A stretch of DNA of 64,000 nt from Elusimicrobiota bacterium. GTDB taxonomy: Bacteria; Elusimicrobiota; UBA8919. A model generated the notes under the pieces. It saw only the letters and a list, made by a program, of their open reading frames with translations. It searched no databases and had not been told where the DNA came from. The stretch lies in contig JAFGLF010000044.1 of assembly GCA_016928195.1 (NCBI GenBank), forward strand, positions 124,001-188,000. Direction: 5' to 3'. Shown in pieces: positions 37,292-55,072 of the stretch (position 1 is its first letter; the number at the start of each line of letters is the position of its first letter). Made by a program: the position numbers and the translations under genes.

Positions 37292-37455
37292 AACGCGAAT
37301 GACCGCGAATAGAGAAGAAAACGCGAATTAACCTGCCCGCAGTGGCTGCGCCACAGGCGCTGCAGGCGGGCGCGAATGAAAGCCATTATTCATATTTAAT
37401 AATTCTTTGCGACCATTAGCGTTAGATTCGCGTGTATTAGCGTTCCGAGCAAAGC
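37292..37455. repeat. Word-echo spacer, word CGCGAAT / ATTCGCG, with GC-rich palindrome
   Basis: Left arm CGCGAATGACCGCGAATAG and ACGCGAATTAACC; centre a GC-rich palindrome GCCCGCAG...CTGCAGGCGGGC (about 37333-37371); right arm GCGACCATTAGCG, TTAGATTCGCG, TGTATTAGCGTT, ending shortly before ribE. The pap spacer (6280-6325) carries only the right-hand kind of words. Confidence 0.65.
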
Positions 37456-37465
37456 GAGGGAAACC

Positions 37466-38152
37466 ATGTTCACAGGTATAATCGAAGACCTTGGAATTAT
37501 TAAAAAAATAAATAAAAATCAGCTTACCGTTACCACAAAGCTGGATGGTATAAAACTTGGTGACAGTATCTGCATCAACGGAGTTTGTTTAACAACTACT
37601 CACTGCTCACCTGCCTCGCCGTCGTCAGGCGGGCTGCTCACTGCTCACTGCTCACTTATAAAGGCTGATATATCCGCAGAAACTCTAAAGCGGACAAACC
37701 TTGGCATGTTAAAACCCGGAGACAAGGTCAATCTCGAAAGGGCAATGAAAACGGACGGGCGGTTTGGCGGACATTTTGTAACAGGGCATATTGATGGCAT
37801 TGGAAAGATTAAAAAATTGGAAAGATTAAAAAATTTTAAGGTTATGAAGTTTTCTGTACCAGAAAGTTTATCAAAACATATAGTTGAAAAAGGTTCTATC
37901 GCCATCGACGGCATCAGTTTAACTGTCTCAGCAGTTACCCAACTCACTGCTCACCTGCCTCGCCGTCGTCAGGCGGGCTACTGCCTACTCACTGTTTCCG
38001 TAATTCCTTATACACTGAAAAACACAACTCTGGACATGAAAAAAGCAGGGGATACCGTAAATATCGAAACAGACATACTTTCTAAATATGTTTTGAAGTC
38101 ACCGGAAAAAAAAGAAATAACAATCGAGATGCTCAGAAAGGCAGGATTCTAA
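37466..38152 (+). CDS. ribE: Riboflavin synthase alpha chain with two in-frame repeat insertions
   Basis: Dismutates two 6,7-dimethyl-8-ribityllumazines to riboflavin. Clear family hallmarks: MFTGIIEDLG start, ADISAETLKRTNLG, GGHFVTGHIDG, KGSIAIDGISLTV, NTTLDMKKAGDTVNIETDIL. Riboflavin synthase is an internal duplication of two barrels; here the same loop of each barrel (after CLTTT and after SLTVSAVT) is lengthened by about 14 and 13 residues relative to the E. coli enzyme. Both extensions contain the same 37-bp element, read in different frames. At 228 residues the protein is slightly long. GGGAAACC lies before the ATG. Confidence 0.92.
   Translation: MFTGIIEDLGIIKKINKNQLTVTTKLDGIKLGDSICINGVCLTTTHCSPASPSSGGLLTAHCSLIKADISAETLKRTNLGMLKPGDKVNLERAMKTDGRFGGHFVTGHIDGIGKIKKLERLKNFKVMKFSVPESLSKHIVEKGSIAIDGISLTVSAVTQLTAHLPRRRQAGYCLLTVSVIPYTLKNTTLDMKKAGDTVNIETDILSKYVLKSPEKKEITIEMLRKAGF
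37599..37635 (+). repeat. 37-bp element, copy 1, within ribE (N-terminal barrel)
   Basis: Identical over 37 bp to copy 2 at 37943. GC-rich core GCCTCGCCGTCGTCAGGCGGG with inverted ends, flanked by CACTGCTCACTGCTCAC words. Here it is read as HCSPASPSSGG. Confidence 0.85.
37943..37979 (+). repeat. 37-bp element, copy 2, within ribE (C-terminal barrel)
   Basis: Same 37 bp as copy 1, but read one frame over, giving LTAHLPRRRQAG. It lies in the loop equivalent to that of copy 1. Confidence 0.85.
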
Positions 38153-40762: not shown

Positions 40763-42974
<2,212 letters not shown>

Positions 42975-43986: not shown

Positions 43987-44679
43987 ATGCGTTGTCCAAG
44001 ATGCAATACAGAAAATAAAGAATCATCTAATTTTTGCAAAAAATGTGGTGAAAAAATATTAAAGCCAGACACAAATACTCAAAGAGTTACAATAGAACAA
44101 AGATATTTACCTATACCCAAAGAAGAAAATATTTTTCCTCATTCATTCAAAGAATTATTTAATAAATCTAATTTGGGTTTTGGCTGGTTTGTGTGGTGGC
44201 GTTCTCTCGGAATGGCGCTTTTATTTACATTTTTAATCAGTATAATCATTACTATACTTTTTGGACATATCGAAGATAATGAACTGGGCGCCATTGGACA
44301 GCTATTGGGTATTATCGGTTATATAATTGGATATAATTATTCTGCAAAATTAGCAAGCAGAAAAAAATATGGAATTATAATAAAAAAATTTATTGGATGG
44401 TCAATTGCTTGGAGAGTTTACATATACTCATTAATGCTTGCTATCCCGTATATGCTTATTGGGATATTTGCTGCTATTAGTATTCCTAAAATGGCAGACT
44501 CTATAAAAGCAAGCAGTAGTTTATCGGTCCTTTGTTATATTATCCTTATTCTTCTTGCGATTGTAGTTTGCGGTTTTTTTATTCTTACTCCTTTTTTATT
44601 GATTTTTCTAACTGGACGTGTAAGTAATATCATAATTCTTAGGAAATTTAAAAAATATAATATTAATGAAGAAAAATAA
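43987..44679 (+). CDS. Zinc-ribbon membrane protein
   Basis: A 230-residue protein: N-terminal zinc ribbon CPRCN...FCKKCGEKI (residues 3-24), a linker, then about four transmembrane segments (about 75-97, 102-120, 140-165, 178-208). AAGGAGA precedes the ATG. The next gene product also combines a zinc ribbon and membrane segments, so they may work together. No enzymatic motif. First gene of the AT-rich island. Confidence 0.72.
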   Translation: MRCPRCNTENKESSNFCKKCGEKILKPDTNTQRVTIEQRYLPIPKEENIFPHSFKELFNKSNLGFGWFVWWRSLGMALLFTFLISIIITILFGHIEDNELGAIGQLLGIIGYIIGYNYSAKLASRKKYGIIIKKFIGWSIAWRVYIYSLMLAIPYMLIGIFAAISIPKMADSIKASSSLSVLCYIILILLAIVVCGFFILTPFLLIFLTGRVSNIIILRKFKKYNINEEK

Positions 44680-44752
44680 CCTTTGCCTGGGACTTTAGAA
44701 GATAGTGTTTAACCTATTGATTTATCTAAGTAAGTAGCAAGGCTGAGTTAAA

Positions 44753-46561
44753 ATGAACGAATTGAAAGAAAAATATTCAAAACTAACCGATGATGAACTT
44801 TTAACTATAGTATATGTTGAAAGTTCAGATTATACCGAAGAAGCAATAAAAGTTGCAAAAATAATTTTAGATGAACGAGGTATAGGGTATCCTTCTGAGG
44901 AAACAATATCGCAAACCAAAAAAACTTACCAGGAGTCAAAAAAAATAGAAGAAAACCTTAAATATAAAGATGTTGGGGGATGGCTTCTTTTCTTCTGTAT
45001 TAGCCTCACAATAATTAATCCTTTATATAATCTTGTCGAGATTATAAATATGCTCAAGTCTTTCACAGTTTTTGTTTTTATAGGTAGTATTTTTGATATA
45101 GGATTATCAATTTATGGCATTTATGCTGGCATGTCTCTTTGGAAAATCCGTCCGCATGCAGTCAAAACTGCGAAGAGATTCCTCCTTGTTTCTTTAATTT
45201 ATGTTGTTTCTATAACGGTATTACTTATTATTTTAGGTATTATTAATGAAGAATTTATTAAAATAGCTACCCGTTCGGTGGTTTATTTTATCATTTGGTA
45301 TTCCTATTTAAGCAAATCAAAAAGAGTAAAAGAGACTTATGGGCTAGATTCTATACCACAACAAAATTTGCCAGAAGAAAACACTGAAAAGGAGGCGCCA
45401 AAGCAATGTCCGAAATGTGGAGCAAAAAATGACGAAGATTCTGAATTTTGTATTAATTGTGGCGAAAAAATAAATTTAGATATTACAATAGAAACTGTTC
45501 AAAATAAACCAGAAAGATCTGATACTATTGGAATAAAAAAGCCAGGTTTTTCTTTTAAAAGATATATAAAACAATGGAAATTTATTACTATTGGGGTTGT
45601 CGTTGTCCTTATTATTGGATTATGGTATATCATTCCTCCAAGTTCTTCATCAATTTTCGAAAAAGAAAAAAATAAAATAGTTTCCATTGTATCTTCAAAA
45701 GGTCTTTTAAAATCACCAATTAAAGGAACAGGTTTTGTAATTGGTCCTTCAGGCAAAATTGCTACAAATTATCATATTATTTGTGGGGCATATAAATGTT
45801 CGATAAAATTTCTTAATGGAGAAAGTTATGATGAGGTAAATGTTTTAGCAGTAGACGCAAAACGTGATATCGCAATACTACAAATTAATGCATTACATTT
45901 GCTGCAAGCAAAACTTGGTAATTCAGCTAAAGTAAAAACGGGCAATAAGTGCTATGTTATTGGTAATCCATTAGGTTTTGAACGGGTAATATCAGATGGC
46001 ATTGTTAGTAATATTGTCCATAGTGAACAAGGATATACGAGTATACAAATCACAGCACCTGTTTCTGAGGGTAATAGCGGCGGGCCTGTTTATGATAGGA
46101 GAGGACGAGTAATCGGTATTGCAACGAGTAGTGTTAAGGAAGGGCAGAACCTGAATTTCGCTGTGCCAATTAATTATGTAAAACCATTGCTTTTAAGAAA
46201 AAAACGGGAAATTTCACTTAAAGAATACACAAAAAATGATGCAAATGCTTATTTATATGCTGGGTTAGAAGAAATGGTTTGTAAAAATTACAGTACTGCC
46301 ATAAATCAATTCTATAAAGCTTATGAAATGGATTCTACATTAACAGAAGCTTGTTATATGATAGGATTAACCTATATATTAAATAAAGATTTTAAAGTAG
46401 CAAAAAACTGGTTAAAATATTATATAAAACTGGAACAAAATAATTCAGAAAATATATCACTAGTTTCAACTGCCGAAAAATTCATTAAGGAAATGGAACT
46501 TAATGAAAAAGAACAACAAATTAAATTGCAAGAAGAATACATAAAGTTATTTGGTTATTGA
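44753..46561 (+). CDS. Membrane protein with zinc ribbon, HtrA-like trypsin domain and TPR
   Basis: A 602-residue multi-domain protein. Order: N-terminal helical segment; four membrane segments (about 72-190, DUF2569-like); zinc ribbon CPKCG...FCINCGEKI (about 219-240); a further transmembrane helix (about 275-300); a trypsin-like S1C protease domain with GTGFVIGPSGKIATNYHIIC (His about 341), DAKRDIAIL (Asp about 371) and GNSGGPV (Ser about 442); C-terminal TPR-like helices (about 500-600). No PDZ domain. The zinc ribbon is predicted cytoplasmic and the protease on the other side of the membrane, suggesting a signalling or quality-control role, which is inference. Confidence 0.82.
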   Translation: MNELKEKYSKLTDDELLTIVYVESSDYTEEAIKVAKIILDERGIGYPSEETISQTKKTYQESKKIEENLKYKDVGGWLLFFCISLTIINPLYNLVEIINMLKSFTVFVFIGSIFDIGLSIYGIYAGMSLWKIRPHAVKTAKRFLLVSLIYVVSITVLLIILGIINEEFIKIATRSVVYFIIWYSYLSKSKRVKETYGLDSIPQQNLPEENTEKEAPKQCPKCGAKNDEDSEFCINCGEKINLDITIETVQNKPERSDTIGIKKPGFSFKRYIKQWKFITIGVVVVLIIGLWYIIPPSSSSIFEKEKNKIVSIVSSKGLLKSPIKGTGFVIGPSGKIATNYHIICGAYKCSIKFLNGESYDEVNVLAVDAKRDIAILQINALHLLQAKLGNSAKVKTGNKCYVIGNPLGFERVISDGIVSNIVHSEQGYTSIQITAPVSEGNSGGPVYDRRGRVIGIATSSVKEGQNLNFAVPINYVKPLLLRKKREISLKEYTKNDANAYLYAGLEEMVCKNYSTAINQFYKAYEMDSTLTEACYMIGLTYILNKDFKVAKNWLKYYIKLEQNNSENISLVSTAEKFIKEMELNEKEQQIKLQEEYIKLFGY

Positions 46562-46678
46562 ATAAACTAAAGAGTGGTGGAATCACCTGTTTAAGTGAGT
46601 AGAATAAAGGAAATGTTTCTAGTTTTTAAAGGCAAAAAATACAAATACCAAATTGTCTAAGGAGTACCTTAAAAAATT

Positions 46679-47329
46679 ATGGAAATTGCAAAATTAATCT
46701 TAGAGTACATAAGAGTAATTATTTGGCCAATTACAGTAATTTTTTTATTGATATATTTTAAAGATGAAATTATTTATTTACTCCGACGGGTAAAAAAGGC
46801 AGATTTACCAGGCGGCATATCCATAGAAGCATTTCCTGATGGAATCAAAGAAGCAAAGATTTTATCAAAAGAAGTCAAAAAAGAGGAAGAAGAGAAAAAA
46901 AGAGAGAAAAGAACATTACCAACTATTACCTTAACAAAAGCAAACACTCGTATGCTTAATCTAGGACTGATTCCATCTCCTTCTGGTCTCGCGTTATCAT
47001 ATTATCGGAATCTTATTGAACAAGATCCAAATATAGCTTTAGCTGGTCTACGTATTGAGGTTGAAACAATGTTAAAAAATCTTGCTAAAGGTTTTAAAAT
47101 CCCGATAAATAAACGTGACAGCGCTAATATTATTGTACAGAAACTAAAAAATAGGTCATCAATTACTTCTCGGCAAGCAGAGCTTCTTAGTTATATAATA
47201 AAATTGTGTAATACTGCAGTACATGGAATCAGGGTATCATCATCGCAAGCCGAAGAAATTTTTAAGATTGCTGAAGTGCTTCGGGATCAATATATATCTT
47301 GGCTGAGTTGGGGATTTCAAAATAAATAA
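46679..47329 (+). CDS. Membrane-anchored DUF4145/HEPN-like protein
   Basis: A 216-residue protein with one N-terminal transmembrane helix (about 8-30), a charged linker (KEVKKEEEEKKREKR) and a C-terminal all-helical domain with LRIEVETMLKNLA and LCNTAVHGIRVSSSQAEEI, the R...(N)xAxH pattern of DUF4145 and related HEPN-type domains. AAGGAG lies 13 bases upstream of the ATG. It precedes the TIR gene by 35 bp, so the two are probably co-transcribed. HEPN-like proteins are often toxins or defence components, but this assignment is tentative. Confidence 0.6.
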   Translation: MEIAKLILEYIRVIIWPITVIFLLIYFKDEIIYLLRRVKKADLPGGISIEAFPDGIKEAKILSKEVKKEEEEKKREKRTLPTITLTKANTRMLNLGLIPSPSGLALSYYRNLIEQDPNIALAGLRIEVETMLKNLAKGFKIPINKRDSANIIVQKLKNRSSITSRQAELLSYIIKLCNTAVHGIRVSSSQAEEIFKIAEVLRDQYISWLSWGFQNK

Positions 47330-47364
47330 AAAATTAAACAACTTATTCATCAAAGGAATAAATT

Positions 47365-48294
47365 ATGGTTAAAAACAAACGAGATGTATTTATTTGTCAT
47401 GCAAGTGAAAACAAGGATAAAATCGTTAGACCATTAGTTAAAGAATTTGACAGACTTGGTATATCATATTGGTTTGATGAAGCAGAAATATCTTGGGGCG
47501 ATAGTTTGACAAAAAAAGTTAATGAAGGGCTTAGAATGTCAAAGTATGTATTAGTTATCCTTAGTTCATATTTTGTATCAAAGAAATGGCCAGAGAAAGA
47601 ACTTTATTCTGCATTAAATATTGAATTATCATCTGATAATATTAAAGTATTACCTTTAATTGTTGGGACTGAAAAAGAAAAAGAACTGATATTGGAAAAC
47701 TATCCATTAATTAATGATAAAAAATATTTACCCTGGAATAACAACATAAGTGATATTGTTAATGCTTTGATGAAAAAGTTGAATACGGCTAATACAAAAA
47801 AACAAATTAATAAATTTACAGATGAAAGTATAGAATCTGATATCCCTATACCAAAAATAAAAAAGAAATTCACTGACCGGGACAGAAACATTTTTTTAAA
47901 GGAAGCATTTAATGAAATAAGAAAATATTTTGAAAAAGCTTTAAAAAAGATTCAAAACCATTATAGTAAAGTTGAATCCGAGTTAATTGATATTCATAAT
48001 TTAAAATTTATTGTAAAAATATACTCTAACGGCGAACTAAAAAATCAATGTAAAATCTGGATAGGTGGTCTTGATTCTTCTTATTCAATTGGATATAAAG
48101 AAGGGGATTGTAACATAGATGATGATAATTCTTATAATGATATTTTATATGTTAAAGATAATGAATATGAAATGGGGTTTGATCCTTTAAGTAAAAACCT
48201 GAGTAATAGTAAATATAGAGATGTTGAAATATTGGATTTAAAACTTACTTGTGAATATCTATGGGAAAGTTTTTCAGAATCATTAGAATATTAG
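47365..48294 (+). CDS. TIR-domain protein with unknown C-terminal domain
   Basis: A 309-residue protein. Residues 5-140 are a TIR domain: DVFICHASENKDKI, YWFDEAEISWGDSL, SKYVLVILSSYF, and WPEKEL with the NADase glutamate Glu79 four residues after Trp75. Bacterial TIR proteins are usually NAD+-degrading effectors of phage defence. The C-terminal 150 residues are not recognised and may sense a trigger. It is followed 9 bp later by a small zinc-ribbon gene and then by a Pycsar-like pair, all on the same strand. It was not possible to tell whether it is part of one system with them. Confidence 0.82.
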   Translation: MVKNKRDVFICHASENKDKIVRPLVKEFDRLGISYWFDEAEISWGDSLTKKVNEGLRMSKYVLVILSSYFVSKKWPEKELYSALNIELSSDNIKVLPLIVGTEKEKELILENYPLINDKKYLPWNNNISDIVNALMKKLNTANTKKQINKFTDESIESDIPIPKIKKKFTDRDRNIFLKEAFNEIRKYFEKALKKIQNHYSKVESELIDIHNLKFIVKIYSNGELKNQCKIWIGGLDSSYSIGYKEGDCNIDDDNSYNDILYVKDNEYEMGFDPLSKNLSNSKYRDVEILDLKLTCEYLWESFSESLEY

Positions 48295-48303
48295 GAGGTA
48301 ATA

Positions 48304-48450
48304 ATGAAAAAACAAGAGTTTGTGTGTAAAAACTGTGGCAGGAAGTTTGTAAAAGAGATTTTTGAAAAAGGTGAGGCAGAAGAAAAAGGATTAAGAGTGT
48401 CTCTTGTAACTTGTCCATATTGTGGCAGTAGAAATGTTGAAAAGATATAA
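48304..48450 (+). CDS. Small zinc-ribbon protein
   Basis: A 48-residue protein with two CxxC knuckles, FVCKNCGRK (Cys8, Cys11) and VTCPYCGSRN (near the C-terminus), the form of a rubredoxin-like or treble-clef zinc ribbon. AGGAGG precedes the ATG at ideal spacing, and the gene starts 9 bp after the TIR stop. The function is unknown. Its place between TIR and cyclase genes suggests a regulator or adaptor. Confidence 0.7.
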   Translation: MKKQEFVCKNCGRKFVKEIFEKGEAEEKGLRVSLVTCPYCGSRNVEKI

Positions 48451-48525
48451 GATAAGAAAGATGGGTTTGCTTCACATTTTTTCAAAAGTGGTTTTAAATA
48501 GTTAAGTAATAATTGGGAGGTATCT

Positions 48526-48690
48526 ATGACTTGGGTATTGCGGAAAGACAGGAATCATCCTATGTGGGGGCCTAAACCTCCAAAAATTCCTAGGGGTCCA
48601 AGAGGTCCAAGACTACCTAGACTTCCACAATTGCCTAAACCGCCAAAACCGCCAGCTCCACCTGGGTATAAATATGTTTGGAAAAAATAA
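48526..48690 (+). CDS. Proline-rich small protein
   Basis: A 54-residue basic peptide with 16 prolines: MTWVLRKDRNHPMWGPKPPK at the start, then GPRGPRLPRLPQLPKPPKPP, and a hydrophobic KYVWKK end. It would form an extended polyproline stretch that could bind an SH3-like or other peptide-binding domain. GGGAGG lies at proper spacing before the ATG. It is in the same run as the TIR and cyclase genes. No similar protein is known to me. Confidence 0.6.
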   Translation: MTWVLRKDRNHPMWGPKPPKIPRGPRGPRLPRLPQLPKPPKPPAPPGYKYVWKK

Positions 48691-48734
48691 GATCTAGGGG
48701 TCATATATGGAAAAATGATTTCGGGAGGATAAAA

Positions 48735-49481
48735 ATGTGGAATAAAGATTATTTGGACAAAATAATAGAAAGGACAAATAAACGAATTAGTAGCTTAAGT
48801 GAAAAATTATTAGAAGTTAAACCAGCAAGGCAAATGCCAGAGGAAGACCAAGTAACTATTGGTAGTGGTAGACAAATGGAAGTTGCTGTGCTTTTTTTAG
48901 ACATTTGTAATTATAGTACTTGGTTTAATGATAGTTATGATTCTCAAAAAATCGTTTTATCTATTATGAACATATTTATGGCTGAAATGATAAATATAGT
49001 AAGAGATTATAAAGGAGAATTTGAAAAAAATACAGGGGATGGATTAATGGCCTATTTTGGGACAGAAACAAATAATTCCTCCGAATGTGTTAAATTAGCT
49101 ATTGATGCAGCTTTAACTATGCATTATTTTAATGATAGTTTATTTGCTCCTTATATGTATCAACAAGGCGCACAAGCAAAAGTAGAATTTAGAGTAGGTA
49201 TAGATTACGGGAAAATAACAATTGGTCGAGTAGGGGCGCCCGGCGGATTCAATTCATTTGTTGCAATTGGTACAACCGCTAATATAGCAAATAAATTACT
49301 CAAGGTAGCTGGTTCAGGAGAAATTGTAATAGGCCAACATGTTAAAGACCTATTACCATCATATAGACAAAAATATTGTAAATTAATACTTATGGGTTCA
49401 GGATTTGAGTATATAAGATCTCAAACACCTTATTGGGCATATAGATATACAAGTAGATGGAAACATCCACAATTAACTTGA
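48735..49481 (+). CDS. Class III nucleotidyl cyclase, Pycsar-like
   Basis: A 248-residue stand-alone cyclase. Metal-binding aspartates are in AVLFLDICNYS (Asp56) and KNTGDGLMAYFG (Asp102); the dimer-side segment is GIDYGKITIGRVGAPGGFNS then AIGTTANIANKL, with Asn183 conserved but the usual transition-state Arg replaced by Lys187. The next gene encodes a DUF5706-like membrane protein, and this pair defines Pycsar anti-phage systems, where such cyclases make cCMP or cUMP. GGGAGG precedes the ATG at 48735; the longer frame from 48678 overlaps the proline-rich gene. Product nucleotide is not readable. Confidence 0.85.
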   Translation: MWNKDYLDKIIERTNKRISSLSEKLLEVKPARQMPEEDQVTIGSGRQMEVAVLFLDICNYSTWFNDSYDSQKIVLSIMNIFMAEMINIVRDYKGEFEKNTGDGLMAYFGTETNNSSECVKLAIDAALTMHYFNDSLFAPYMYQQGAQAKVEFRVGIDYGKITIGRVGAPGGFNSFVAIGTTANIANKLLKVAGSGEIVIGQHVKDLLPSYRQKYCKLILMGSGFEYIRSQTPYWAYRYTSRWKHPQLT

Positions 49482-49520
49482 TTAATTATACTGATAGTAA
49501 CAAAAAAACAGGAGGTAGTT

Positions 49521-50177
49521 ATGAATAAACTAGAAAATGAAGAATATGTAAAAGAAGATATCCCTCAAATACAAACATCAGAGAAAAAAATAATATTAGA
49601 AGATGTTAAAAAATTGAACTCCGCAGATATTCTAAAAGAAAAAAATGATACTAAATCGGAAATAATTGCTAGTGAAAAAAAACCGTATCCTGATATTATT
49701 AAAGGAATGTCCATTTTTATAAGAGACTATATAACTAACAATATATCATTAGGAGATTCCAAGGCGGGGATTTTTATCGGTGCTGTAACCGGAGTTTTAA
49801 CAATCACATATTTACATGGTCCTGAAATGTTTAAAAAATCTTTAAAAACATGGGCTTTTTTTGAATTTACTTCTTTTATTGGATGTTTATTACTTGTGAT
49901 AAGTATATATTTTTCTCTGCGTGTAGTTTGGCCTAGAACTTTAACAAGTAAAAAAAAGGGGCTTGTTTCATGGGTGCATATAGCTAATTACAAGGATGTA
50001 ACAGAATACGTAAAAGAAATTTTTTCAACTAATGAGAGTCAAATAATAGAGAATCTTTATGAATTAAACTATGATCTGTCTTCTATCTGTAATAAAAAGT
50101 ATATAAATTTGAAACTTGCCTTTGTGATTGGTTTTATTGGAATTGCAATTTGCATTTTTGTGCTTATAATGGGTTAG
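49521..50177 (+). CDS. Pycsar-type transmembrane effector (DUF5706-like)
   Basis: A 218-residue membrane protein. The first 65 residues are charged and probably unstructured. ISLGDSKAGIFIGAVTGVL (about 75-93) starts the first transmembrane segment with the typical aDxKAg motif; the second segment is about 111-134, followed by VVWPRT; the third is about 198-217 after NKKYINLKLA. This order matches the PycTM effector family, thought to disrupt the membrane when cyclic CMP/UMP is made. AGGAGG precedes the ATG. It lies 39 bp after the cyclase gene. Confidence 0.8.
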   Translation: MNKLENEEYVKEDIPQIQTSEKKIILEDVKKLNSADILKEKNDTKSEIIASEKKPYPDIIKGMSIFIRDYITNNISLGDSKAGIFIGAVTGVLTITYLHGPEMFKKSLKTWAFFEFTSFIGCLLLVISIYFSLRVVWPRTLTSKKKGLVSWVHIANYKDVTEYVKEIFSTNESQIIENLYELNYDLSSICNKKYINLKLAFVIGFIGIAICIFVLIMG

Positions 50178-50338
50178 GGGATAGTGTTTAACTGGTTAAA
50201 TAAAACTTTTCTACTTTCGCCATAGGTAAATGGGAATAGTTCTGGTTTTTAGATTTCTCCAACTTTCACTAGTAATCTTAACTGGAAATTGGGAATAAAA
50301 ACTAAAGAGTATCTCCTCAAATATTCAGGAGATGTTTT

Positions 50339-51277
50339 ATGGGTTTTAGATTTAGAAAATCAATATCACTGGGCAAAGGATTAAGATTAAATATCGGTAA
50401 AAAAGGACTAGGTTTGAGTGCTGGGGTAAAAGGTTTACGTGTCGGAGTTGGAAATAAAGGAGTTTATACTCGTATTGGAATTCCAAAGACAGGGCTGGGT
50501 TCAGTAAATTATTTGGGTAAAGGTAAAAAAACCTCCCAAGAACAAGTTTCTTATAGTTCAAACAACCATTCACCTGGTTGTTCAGTTGGGTGTGTATTTG
50601 TTTTTTTGTATTTTATTGGATTTATTTTGTTGCTTATAAAACCAATAATTGGATTTTTTGTTTTACTAATTATGGGAATCGTTAATTATACTTGGTATAG
50701 TAGTCCAACGGAGAAGGCAAAACGAAAGCTACAAAAATCAAAAAAGCATATTAGTGAGCAAAATTATGAGGAATCTATAAAATGCCTACTAGAGGCCAAT
50801 AACATTGATCCAAAAAACGAAGATATAATTTATTTGCTCGGCAAGGTTTTACATGAGGTCGGAAAATATTCTGAGGCAATTTTATATTTCAAAGTTATAT
50901 TTGATAAATACCCAGAAGATTATGAAATAAAACTACTAATAGGAAATTGTTATTACAAAATAAATAAGTTTGATGAAGCGCTAAATGTTTTACAAAAAAT
51001 ACCAGAAGAATTTGAAGAATATTTAAAGGTTATACAACTATTAGGTGCATGTTTTGCACAACAAAAAAAATATGATTTAGCCATTGAAGTTTTAAAAAAA
51101 GCTCCATTGCAAAAGAGAAATTTAGATGATGATTTACTGGAAGTACACTATAGTCTTGCCCTTGTTTATGAGTTATCGGGTGATAATAAAAATGCACTAA
51201 AACATTATAAGAAAGTTTATACTCAAAATATAAGCTATCGTGATGTAGCAGACAAGATTAAAGGCTTAGAGAAGTAA
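50339..51277 (+). CDS. DUF4236 / TPR membrane protein
   Basis: A 312-residue protein. Residues 1-60 are a DUF4236 domain with its glycine-rich ladder (FRKSISLGKGLRLNIGKKG; VGNKGVYTRIG). One or two transmembrane helices follow (about 83-120), then about six TPR-like repeats (140-312; NYEESIKCLLEANNIDPKNE, KYSEAILYF). AGGAG precedes the ATG. The spacer before it (50178-50338) contains no gene. Function unknown; the layout suggests a scaffold at the membrane. Confidence 0.78.
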   Translation: MGFRFRKSISLGKGLRLNIGKKGLGLSAGVKGLRVGVGNKGVYTRIGIPKTGLGSVNYLGKGKKTSQEQVSYSSNNHSPGCSVGCVFVFLYFIGFILLLIKPIIGFFVLLIMGIVNYTWYSSPTEKAKRKLQKSKKHISEQNYEESIKCLLEANNIDPKNEDIIYLLGKVLHEVGKYSEAILYFKVIFDKYPEDYEIKLLIGNCYYKINKFDEALNVLQKIPEEFEEYLKVIQLLGACFAQQKKYDLAIEVLKKAPLQKRNLDDDLLEVHYSLALVYELSGDNKNALKHYKKVYTQNISYRDVADKIKGLEK

Positions 51278-51338
51278 CAGTAGTAACAAGGTCAGGTCTC
51301 GAAAATTGTATCTTGAAAAAATAATTTTGGAAGAAAAA

Positions 51339-52337
51339 ATGGAAGTTAAAATAACTAAGTCTGAAATCCCGATAATATGGATTGATACCTCTATCATAAA
51401 TCATATGACAATGTGGAAATTTAAGTTAAATAAGCTTGATGGGGATTTAGAGGAAAAAATTTCAAAACTATATAATGCGATTTACACTAATACTCGAAAA
51501 GGAAAACTTATTTGTCCATTGGCTGAGCAAGATGAAGAAATTTGGGTAGAACGTGACAAATGGTTTGATGTGATACGAAAGCTCTCATTAAGTATTAAAA
51601 CTAAAGCCCCACTTGATATTGAACACAATCAACTAAAATATTTCATGAAAGCCTATGTAAATGGAGATACAACAGTTACTCTTAAATATACTGATGCATT
51701 TTATTCAGACCCTGTACACGAGTTAAAAGATATTTTAAAAAGCCCTGTTTTTATTGATATTAAACGTAATATTCCATTTGGAAAAGAATACCAGAAAAAC
51801 CTAAAAAAGAGTATATATCAGGCAATGGAAGAACAAAGAAAAAAAAATGTAGAGGCTAATGTAACTTTTGACCAGCAAATAAGGGAAGAATACATTGGTG
51901 AACTGCAGGCATTATTTATTCTTCAAAGACAATTCATGTCAGGTCAATTTAAAGATGATAATGATCAACTCAATGCAACTTGTGGGGCAATAAATTTAAA
52001 CGAACAATTGGTGCTTTGGGAGAGCCTCACCGGCAAAGCTATGGATTATAAAGGATTAATAGGTTTTTACAAATCGGTTCATCACAAATCAATGCCGTTT
52101 AGTAATATTTCATGCAATCTTTACGCATGTATTATGACAGCTAAACAACCAATCAGGAGCGGTGATGTCATGGATATTAAACACGCCTCAACATTCCTAC
52201 CTTTTTCAAATATGTATATCACTGATAGGGCAATAAGTGCATTTCTTAAGAAAAGAGGTTTTGATAAATTGTATAATACAACTGTTTGTTATCTTGGGGA
52301 TACAAGTGTAATAAATGATTTTTTCTCAAAGCTATAA
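51339..52337 (+). CDS. PIN-like protein of unknown function
   Basis: A 332-residue protein. The N-terminal PIIWIDTSIIN (Asp16) and the C-terminal MDIKHASTFLPFSNMYITDR (acidic residues about 278 and 295) match the ends of a PIN-type nuclease fold, with a long helical insert between. A middle Glu/Asp set (DAFYSDPVHELKD) could supply the remaining acidic residue. The in-frame TTG at 51306 is possible, but the ATG at 51339 has a GGAAG site. Large PIN-like nucleases occur in mobile and defence islands; activity is not established. Confidence 0.6.
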   Translation: MEVKITKSEIPIIWIDTSIINHMTMWKFKLNKLDGDLEEKISKLYNAIYTNTRKGKLICPLAEQDEEIWVERDKWFDVIRKLSLSIKTKAPLDIEHNQLKYFMKAYVNGDTTVTLKYTDAFYSDPVHELKDILKSPVFIDIKRNIPFGKEYQKNLKKSIYQAMEEQRKKNVEANVTFDQQIREEYIGELQALFILQRQFMSGQFKDDNDQLNATCGAINLNEQLVLWESLTGKAMDYKGLIGFYKSVHHKSMPFSNISCNLYACIMTAKQPIRSGDVMDIKHASTFLPFSNMYITDRAISAFLKKRGFDKLYNTTVCYLGDTSVINDFFSKL

Positions 52338-52483
52338 TTGAACGAACCAAAGAAGGTACAGGTGTAGGGTCCCGAAACGTGAAAAAATAATACCGGAGAT
52401 GCCAGTAATTACCTTAAAAATATTTGCATAAAAAAACATTAATGAATCTTGAAAAAATAAGAAATTATGGGGACGTTTCTGAT

Positions 52484-52560
52484 AAGGACTGCGAGGGGGA
52501 CGGAGTTGACTTGGTTCACTTAACAAAAATCAAAAATTGCACCCTGAAAAAATGATTTTG
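52484..52560 (+). repeat. 77-bp direct repeat, copy 1
   Basis: Identical to 53691-53767. It begins AAGGACTGCGAGGGGGACGG and ends with a GATTTTG. It is preceded by ATGGGGACGTTTCTGATAA, a motif recurring with variations at 53640, 53850, 55000 and 55040. Confidence 0.9.
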
Positions 52561-52592
52561 AGAATGAATAAATAAAAATTGTTGGAGAAAAA

Positions 52593-53627
52593 ATGAGAAA
52601 TTTAAAACTTAATAACATTTTTTGGTTACTTATTTTTTGTATTGCATTGATTTTACAAACATCTTTTTTAACTGCTGCAGACCCGAAGTTAAAGGAATCG
52701 CTTATAGATGATATGCAATATTATGAAAAAGTCGTAAAACCAATGGGTAGAAATGCCCAAATAAACTTTCTAAATAGGGTTATTCAGAAGTATGAGGACA
52801 AAGGTATTGCACCAATGTATCTTACTCCAATTGAAGAAAAATTAAGAACATTACAAGAAAAACCTGTCCAGAGAAGAAGATTGAATGATTTTGATGGAAC
52901 AGATATTGAAGATATAAAAAAAACCAGAGAAACAAAAAACACATATGGTTTTTGTGATGCTTATGGGGGAATAATTTTTAACAATGATGTTTATGAAAAC
53001 GGTTCTGTTGCGGGTATAAAACTGGGGATTTTAGGATCTGTTGTGGGCGGGTCGTTAGATGTTGATTATATTGATACCGAAACAAAAAACGGGTCGGCAG
53101 ATTTTACTATGTTCCCAATATCGGTATCGTTTATTGTATTACCGGCGAAGTGGCTTTCTTTTAATGTTGGCGGGGGTTATTATATTATAGATTATTCTTA
53201 CAACTCAATGCTGTATGGCAGTGATGAATATTATCGTGACTATTGGGATGACTTTTATCTTTATTATTACTGGACGGGTGGTTCATGGAATAGTTATGCA
53301 TATTATTTTTTAACTCTCAAAGAAAAATTTGAAAATAGTTTTGGTTTCCACGCAGGGATTGATTTTGACATTCCCATTTATAAAGGTTTATCTTTCGGTA
53401 TAAATACAAAATATTTAATATTAAAACCAACTTTGAATACAACAGGAACTCTAACGGAAAGTTATTATTTTTATAATAAAACGTATACACAATCTTCTTG
53501 GAATGACGATTATTGGTATTGGGATTATGATTATTATTATGAGTATACTACTACTGCCATTAAGACCTCTGAAGAGATAGATTTGAGTTCATTGGTTTTA
53601 ACAGGCGGATTGAAATTTAAGTTTTAA
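52593..53627 (+). CDS. Outer-membrane beta-barrel protein between direct repeats
   Basis: A 344-residue exported protein. The signal peptide (to about residue 30, FLTAADPK) precedes a helical/charged segment (30-115) and then a beta barrel of about eight to ten strands rich in Gly, Tyr and Trp (WLSFNVGGGYYIIDYSYNS; SFGFHAGIDFDIPIYKGLSF), ending with the C-terminal phenylalanine (GGLKFKF) expected for BAM-dependent barrels. GGAGAAAAA precedes the ATG. The gene is enclosed by two identical 77-bp direct repeats, which suggests past duplication or mobility of the block. Confidence 0.78.
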   Translation: MRNLKLNNIFWLLIFCIALILQTSFLTAADPKLKESLIDDMQYYEKVVKPMGRNAQINFLNRVIQKYEDKGIAPMYLTPIEEKLRTLQEKPVQRRRLNDFDGTDIEDIKKTRETKNTYGFCDAYGGIIFNNDVYENGSVAGIKLGILGSVVGGSLDVDYIDTETKNGSADFTMFPISVSFIVLPAKWLSFNVGGGYYIIDYSYNSMLYGSDEYYRDYWDDFYLYYYWTGGSWNSYAYYFLTLKEKFENSFGFHAGIDFDIPIYKGLSFGINTKYLILKPTLNTTGTLTESYYFYNKTYTQSSWNDDYWYWDYDYYYEYTTTAIKTSEEIDLSSLVLTGGLKFKF

Positions 53628-53690
53628 AGTTAGGGAAAATGGGGACGTTTCTAATAAAGGTACATAATAAGGACTGCGAGGGGGAAAAAT

Positions 53691-53767
53691 AAGGACTGCG
53701 AGGGGGACGGAGTTGACTTGGTTCACTTAACAAAAATCAAAAATTGCACCCTGAAAAAATGATTTTG
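53691..53767 (+). repeat. 77-bp direct repeat, copy 2
   Basis: Identical to 52484-52560; just before it the first 15-16 bases (AAGGACTGCGAGGGGG) are also present once more at about 53669-53684. Confidence 0.9.
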
Positions 53768-54051
53768 CGTAGGAAACTTTTATTATATTTAGGCCTTGCC
53801 GGCTTATTTTTATTATAATAAGAAATTATTGGGACGGTTCTAATAAAATAGAAAATGGGGACGTTTCTATTAAATCGGTTCCGATAAACCGGAATCTACA
53901 CTGGCTTCGAGACCTATGCTACGCTTCGGCTTCGCTCCGAGAATTAATCCGCCATTGAGGCATCGGCGGATTTTCGCTTCGCCCTGAACACCATGCGGTG
54001 CCCAGTACCAGATGGTACAGGGCGGTGCAGGGCTTTGCTTCAAAAAAATAC

Positions 54052-54080
54052 TTGACAAAAATCATATTATAGTTTATAAT
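54052..54080 (+). promoter_or_regulatory. Perfect sigma-70 promoter of the toxin-antitoxin locus
   Basis: TTGACA (54052-54057), 17-bp spacer, TATAAT (54075-54080): full consensus. TATAGTTTA (54068-54076) and TAAACTATA (54100-54108) form a perfect 9-bp inverted repeat that overlaps the -10 box and the start point, a probable operator for the XRE antitoxin. Confidence 0.85.
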
Positions 54081-54118
54081 CTATAGTAGATATAGGTTTT
54101 AAACTATAGGGGAACGGT

Positions 54119-54464
54119 ATGAACAACAAGGTTCATGAAATACAATTAAGGGTGTTAGAGATATTTTCAAAAACATCTAAAACCTTCGCATTGGCAGGAG
54201 GCACCGCATTAGAACTTTTTTACCTGAAGCATAGATTTTCCAGAGACCTTGATTTCTTTTCTCCAAATTATACCGTAAAAGAGATTCAAAATATAGTTTC
54301 ACAGATTAAATCAGGATTGAAACTACAAGTGAAATTTGAAAATGAGTTTTCTGCTGCCGGACATGGATCTGGATATATATCAAAAAAAATTCGATACTTC
54401 GAAAATGCTTAGTTATATTGACGGCGAGATACAAAAATTTATAGGTGGAGAAATAAAAATATGA
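54119..54464 (+). pseudogene. Truncated, frameshifted AbiEii-type nucleotidyltransferase toxin
   Basis: The first frame (54119-54412, 97 codons) holds the nucleotidyltransferase motif FALAGGTALELFYLKHRFSRD followed by LDFFS, typical of AbiEii/AbiGii toxins, which are normally 200 residues or more. It stops early. Another frame then reads LPDMDLDIYQKKFDTSKMLS and ends at 54464, overlapping the ATG of the next gene (ATGA), as expected for the original toxin end. I conclude that an internal deletion with a frame change destroyed the gene. The middle of the toxin is missing, so a simple read-through would not restore it. Confidence 0.65.
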
Positions 54465-54958
54465 ATATTAAGAAATATTTCTGGAGCCTAAATAGTAAGG
54501 CAATTAGGAAAACAAAAAAAATACTTAAAAACACGGACCATCCAGGATTTACCAAAAATATGGTTGCCATATTATCACGATGCGATAAACCCAGAGAGGT
54601 ATTTTCTTTAATTACAAAGAAAAAATTTACGGAAGTATGGCCTAAAATCAGGCGATACTGGGCAAAAACAAACCAATCGCCCGAATTCAGGGCGTGGTGG
54701 CAAACTGTTTATGAAGGGCTGTTAGGAATTCAGAAAAAAAAGATGCCGGGTGAACCGTCAGTATTTGCCTCGCAAATCGGTAAAACTATCAGGAACTACA
54801 GAATTGAAAAAGAAATAAGTCAGTCTGATCTGGCTAAAAGGAGCGGGATTAATCAACCGGATATATCAGCAATAGAGAAAGGTAAAAAAAATATTACTAT
54901 TGAAACACTTTTGCGTTTATGCAAGGTTCTGGGTATAAAAGATATACCTGTAACCTAA
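54461..54958 (+). CDS. XRE-family antitoxin-like transcriptional regulator
   Basis: A 165-residue protein whose C-terminal 60 residues are a helix-turn-helix of the XRE type (IRNYRIEKEISQSDLAKRSG; QPDISAIEKGKKNITIETLL). The first 100 residues are helical and not recognised. It overlaps the toxin remnant by four bases, and the inverted repeat over the promoter is its likely operator. It probably keeps repressing the locus even though the toxin gene is broken. GGTGGAG lies upstream at some distance. Confidence 0.8.
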   Translation: MNIKKYFWSLNSKAIRKTKKILKNTDHPGFTKNMVAILSRCDKPREVFSLITKKKFTEVWPKIRRYWAKTNQSPEFRAWWQTVYEGLLGIQKKKMPGEPSVFASQIGKTIRNYRIEKEISQSDLAKRSGINQPDISAIEKGKKNITIETLLRLCKVLGIKDIPVT

Positions 54959-55072
54959 CGGACGCGAGGTCGCCTGTTTAGGTGATTGTTCCGCCATAAA
55001 TGGGGACGTTTCTAATTTTCCACCTAATAAGAAACAATGGGGACGGTTCTGATTAATCCGCCCCGCAAAAAC

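Follow-up and report, generated by a model that had tools for sequence, protein, structure and literature searches.

Short palindromes and tandemly repeated heptamers have been described in several bacterial lineages. Intragenic repetitive extragenic palindromes (REPs) of the GTAG- and CGTC-tagged kinds lie within open reading frames (ORFs), sometimes twice per gene, and have been found in genes for DNA ligase and tRNA synthetases, among others (De Gregorio et al. 2013, PMC3733652). Rickettsia palindromic elements (RPEs) are about 150 bp long, encode a conserved peptide and stand in frame in unrelated conserved protein genes. The heptanucleotide elements of Geobacter metallireducens form a single GC-rich family, proposed to act as regulatory RNA (PMC2700814), and the heptamer tandem repeats of Nostoc, Xanthomonas and Beggiatoaceae are abundant and dispersed, mostly intergenic, under-represented in coding sequence and present in ORFs as a minority (PMC4692102, PMC4679880). 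Here we describe a composite of palindrome and heptamers that is present twice within ribE, the riboflavin synthase gene of an Elusimicrobiota bacterium, at two equivalent loops of the enzyme. The gene lies in a stretch of 64,000 nucleotides (the window; contig C62:124001-188000) from a 2.37-Mb draft genome, G000, of 87 contigs, with a completeness of 98.4% and an estimated contamination of 6.2%.

The ribE product contains two lumazine-binding barrels (Pfam PF00677, 6.8e-45) with their conserved motifs, has solved homologues in the PDB and retains the residues invariant across 26 other RibEs. An original prediction, made from the sequence of the window, reported the same 37-bp element twice in this gene. 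Two copies of identical DNA are indeed present, and the exact direct repeat is one base longer, 38 bp (ACTCACTGCTCACCTGCCTCGCCGTCGTCAGGCGGGCT), reaching 53 bp at 92% identity when mismatches are allowed. Shuffling the window 100 times gave an expectation of zero occurrences for its 27-bp core. As had been claimed, the copies are read in two frames, copy 1 beginning at offset 132 of the coding sequence (frame 0) and copy 2 at offset 476 (frame 2). They translate to unrelated peptides, ...THCSPASPSSGGL... and ...LTAHLPRRRQAGY..., which supports the further claim that the DNA element rather than the peptide was copied. Beyond that prediction, the element is a composite, a heptamer array joined to a palindrome, and the genome contains many such elements. 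In each copy ACTGCTC-type heptamers are followed by a 24-bp imperfect palindrome, CCTGCCTCGCCGTCGTCAGGCGGG, and then by heptamers again. The palindrome arms, CCTGCCT/AGGCGGG, match over 7 positions including one T-G and enclose a loop of 10 nt, against 7 nt in the predicted fold. A search for an RNA family at the element found none. Between the two copies, at window positions 37799-37832, lies a perfect 17-bp tandem duplication, perhaps a length-neutral template switch; we considered it as a third insertion and rejected it because relatives are equally long there.

The insertion sites follow CLT in barrel 1 and SLT in barrel 2, which are equivalent hairpins, and alignments of the ribE product to solved RibEs gap at exactly these two sites. 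In the AlphaFold model (mean pLDDT 88.9; insert blocks 67 and 62) the inserts stand at the tips of hairpins E40-49/E61-68 and E150-159/E172-179, in agreement with the loop equivalence that had been predicted. For loop lengths and structure alignment we used mostly distant RibEs from a scan of genome contigs. The hairpins of the window RibE span 25 residues at site 1 and 26 at site 2, compared with 12-14 (63 of 63 measured) and 13 (54 of 54) in unrelated RibEs. The model matches solved RibEs, indicating that the predicted fold is intact despite the inserts; the enzyme probably stays active, and the insert peptides would have no function of their own.

We searched the genome for the two parts of the composite. 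The palindrome is found in 8 copies when up to 3 mismatches are allowed. It lies in frame in a glycosyltransferase fusion (L001) and a phosphohexomutase (L006); an amylase-like gene (L004) contains it in reverse orientation, and an M16 peptidase-like ORF (L008) has it close to the start. Its reading is PASPSSGG or SASPSSGG in ribE copy 1, the glycosyltransferase fusion and the phosphohexomutase, and LPRRRQAG in ribE copy 2. Outside ribE the flanks are most often ATTTG...CAATTTGCGTTT, and at one locus they are TATCTGC heptamers; the combination of palindrome and ACTGCTC flanks is seen only in ribE, twice. Related CCTGCC...GGCGGG palindromes occupy many intergenic sites, several of them adjoining 7- or 8-mer tracts. 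The glycosyltransferase locus (L001:385-2691, minus strand) holds two glycosyltransferases in one frame of 769 residues, joined through GACGATG heptamers and the palindrome, and is possibly a gene fusion made by the repeat.

A search for the ACTGCTC tract returned 17 overlapping matches, which fall at about ten places. Every tract found lies in frame on the coding strand of a protein gene, the hosts being the two ribE hairpins, GatB, MurG, RmlD, a TrmA-like methyltransferase, HisC and several signal peptides. The complement of the tract reads GAG CAG TGA, and this one-way orientation is expected from selection for an open frame because the complement carries TGA.

To place these tracts in the context of the genome, we counted arrays of period 7, 8, 14 or 16 with Tandem Repeats Finder (TRF) in a sample of 589 mechanically called ORFs, each at least 150 amino acids long and together making up 689 kb. 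There were 60 such arrays in 52 of the 589 ORFs (about 9%), against 2-9 in 20 synonymous shuffles and 0-5 in 20 codon shuffles, while arrays with a period that is a multiple of three showed no excess (17 against 10-26 in shuffles). Many period-7 units besides ACTGCTC were present. With all units taken together, tract density was 66 per 100 kb in intergenic DNA and 7 per 100 kb in genes. About half of the in-gene arrays fall within the first 40 codons, where many encode a signal-peptide hydrophobic core. Because the starts of some ORFs may have been miscalled, these N-terminal cases are less certain than the interior ones. Heptamer or octamer arrays (FLLTAHCSLFTIHCLYA, FLLSVICHLSSVIC) code for many signal-peptide cores, for instance in L136, L145, L149 and ORFs of C19, C34 and C62. 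Samples of a relative from the same family (G003) and of one from another family (G011) were similarly rich in arrays, and none was found in the coding sequence sampled from a member of the Endomicrobia (G024) or from G036.

The same loops carry different units in relatives. RibE identity to the nearest of these is about 60-64%, too great a distance for placing the insertion junctions. Within the family, G006 and G007 have GTTACTC-type heptamers in the barrel-1 hairpin of ribE, G003 and G004 have GAGTTCAC octamers there, and G001 has a palindrome between CTCTAAT heptamers. In G002 (L036:1501-2259) this hairpin contains a different, longer repeat, CACCCTGAACAAAGTGAAGGGT, read CHPEQSEGS; in G005 the loop is plain. 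With some loops short and others built of unrelated units, the objection that all relatives might share old long loops whose DNA had diverged does not hold. Valyl-tRNA synthetase (ValRS) of G000 carries one octamer composite of ~80 bp twice (91% identical), in two loops absent from the Thermus enzyme, and a DeoB-like gene carries a third copy. Tracts of other units occupy both ValRS loops in G007 and G004, and neither insert is present in G001, G002, G005, G009 or G010. Several ValRS elements are hairpins of complementary units, with DNA fold z-scores of -4.0 to -4.5 for three of them. In the DNA ligase LigA the loop contains TCGTCCA in G000, ACTTCCC-like units in G003, G006 and G007 and ACTGCCC-like units in G004, and it is short in G001, G002, G005 and G008-G010. 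MurG was excluded as evidence on presence or absence in relatives, the wrong frame having been chosen for two of them.

The spacing of the two ribE copies is 344 bp and that of the barrels, measured at the LT motif, 330 bp. This 14-bp offset rules out plain in-register gene conversion between the barrels. To ask how often elements pair within a gene, we listed exact repeats, 22 bp or longer, that coding sequences of the sample share, removed overlapping ORFs and read the list manually. About 15 pairs of dispersed elements link different genes and two lie within one gene (ribE and ValRS), where about 0.04 same-gene pairs are expected (chance 0.0024 per random pair; P about 8e-4). Two further same-gene pairs, which look like ordinary protein repeats, were left out. 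Since same-gene pairs exceed expectation, local copying is favored, on small numbers.

Together, these data make it likely that both ribE inserts are copies of a dispersed repeat of the REP or short tandemly repeated repetitive (STRR) kind, and that copy 2 arose from copy 1 by local DNA copying. The element would be a DNA repeat of non-coding type, a short palindrome within an ACTGCTC heptamer tract. In this lineage 7- and 8-mer tracts, with or without a palindrome, would be copied around the genome and would persist in a gene where the site is a loop or a signal peptide and the reading frame has no stop. The element may first have reached the tip of one ribE hairpin; a second copy would then have been placed in the equivalent hairpin, probably by slippage or by a template switch at either palindrome or heptamers, and the insert peptide would be a by-product. 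Several points weigh against this course of events. The ribE palindromes fold no better than shuffles (z -0.9 and -1.1), and no enzyme could be linked to the palindrome. The local-copy step is based on two gene pairs, and no near-identical strain with an empty site was among the genomes compared.

The most serious competitor, which we nevertheless regard as unlikely, is that one genomic element inserted independently at each hairpin, both being equally permissive, and that neither copy gave rise to the other. This would fit the presence of each part, palindrome and heptamer tract, elsewhere in the genome, the permissiveness of both loops and the single-loop tracts of relatives; against it, the composite of the two has been seen only in ribE, where it occurs twice, and same-gene pairs are over-represented. 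Growth in place by polymerase slippage of heptamer seeds, with palindromes arising secondarily and the copies made identical by recombination, would explain the tandem period of 7 or 8 and the different units at the same loop among relatives. Slippage alone, however, does not produce an identical unit and a 24-bp palindrome in unrelated genes, and the repeat is out of barrel register; we consider this origin improbable.

Lower still do we rate selection of the loop peptides for a function, such as an interaction or regulatory RibE loop, with the DNA identity incidental. Both loops are kept open and the copies stand at equivalent places, but one DNA sequence yields two unrelated peptides, relatives carry unrelated peptides or none, and the same DNA is found in unrelated proteins. 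An artefact of metagenome assembly or binning, suggested by the fragmentation and estimated contamination of the draft, is very unlikely: both inserts preserve the frame, and insertions of the same kind recur in dozens of genes and in several independently assembled relatives, whose corresponding loops hold tracts. The objection to the prediction on this ground thus does not apply.

Coordinates of ribE, its repeat parts and related elements in the window (position 1 is the first base of the window).
Feature	Position	Strand	Evidence
ribE, encoding riboflavin synthase (228 aa); carries both insertions	37466..38152	+	Pfam Lum_binding twice; PDB homologues to E 1e-44; Foldseek TM 0.87 to 4e0f
Copy 1, exact 38-bp repeat, frame 0	37598..37635	+	
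Copy 2, exact 38-bp repeat, frame 2	37942..37979	+	
Palindromic core of copy 1, CCTGCCTCGCCGTCGTCAGGCGGG	37610..37633	+	8 genomic copies, <=3 mismatches
Palindromic core of copy 2	37954..37977	+	genome search for palindrome
Left heptamer tract of copy 1 (ACTGCTC type)	37596..37609	+	
Right heptamer tract of copy 1, (CTGCTCA)x3.3	37634..37656	+	TRF
Left heptamer tract of copy 2	37942..37953	+	
Right heptamer tract of copy 2, degenerate (CTACTGCCTACTCACTG)	37978..37994	+	
Related intergenic palindrome CCTGCC...GGCGGG within GCGAAT tract, upstream of ribE	37332..37370	+	
(TCGTCCA)x4.9 tract in frame in ligA (40935-42974), another loop insertion of the window	41427..41460	+	

The neighbors of ribE, named by sequence, are genes that we take to be ribD, ribBA and ribH. 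Elsewhere in the window, positions 44000-55000 are low in GC (about 0.30-0.35 against 0.41) and may form an island; inspection by eye showed a TIR-like protein (47365-48294), a cyclase-like protein and a trypsin-like protein there.

Tandem repeats in bacterial coding sequence are normally excluded unless their period is a multiple of three, and in this genome 7- and 8-base tracts reach roughly a tenth of the sampled genes, usually essential ones included (ValRS, LigA, MurG, GatB). The reuse of loops with other units in relatives provides a natural catalogue of loops that tolerate insertion, and the tracts offer a view of selfish or accidental DNA turning into protein sequence. Of this, ribE is a clean example, with a single DNA sequence translated into unrelated peptides at a pair of equivalent sites in the same fold. 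A broader proposal, possible though doubtful, is that a process in the lineage keeps rewriting the 7- and 8-mer tracts at fixed loops of RibE, ValRS and LigA, with a unit that differs per species, and copies them preferentially within a gene; if true, it would be a continuing supply of new loop and signal-peptide sequences.

We found no published account of in-ORF heptamers in Elusimicrobia in the literature searched, in itself weak evidence. The ribE element shares with intragenic REPs its short palindromes in ORFs, and it differs in sitting within 7- and 8-mer tracts at equivalent loops of one enzyme. Neither GTAG nor CGTC stands at an end of any of the palindrome's 8 copies in the genome, CGTC occurring only inside the loop. 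The CGTC REP has a stem of 8-9 bp and a loop of 4-5 bp, which the 7-position arms and 10-nt loop of the ribE palindrome do not match. GTAG REPs are linked to a REP-associated tyrosine transposase (RAYT), and no such partner was found for the ribE palindrome: the only Y1 transposase gene found in G000 (L135:1393-1860, on C78) has GTAG-type hairpins at its locus and not the ribE palindrome. This RAYT-like gene appears to hold three GTAG-type REP hairpins in its own ORF (e.g. CGTAGGGGCGGATTTATCCGCCC).

As with RPEs, palindromic DNA lies here in frame in unrelated conserved protein genes; in contrast to the single conserved peptide of the much longer RPE, the 24-bp core and 38-bp repeat have at least three readings, including one from the reverse strand. 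Octamer pairs on opposite strands recall the Geobacter elements, from which G000 differs in its many unit families and in loop placement, here also followed across relatives. The dispersal of tandem heptamers that marks STRR-type repeats is seen here as well, both for ACTGCTC and for many further period-7 units; unlike in Nostoc, Xanthomonas and Beggiatoaceae, the in-gene arrays of G000 are far above shuffles. The resemblance to REPs, RPEs and the Geobacter and cyanobacterial heptamers is one of mode of life rather than of demonstrated descent.
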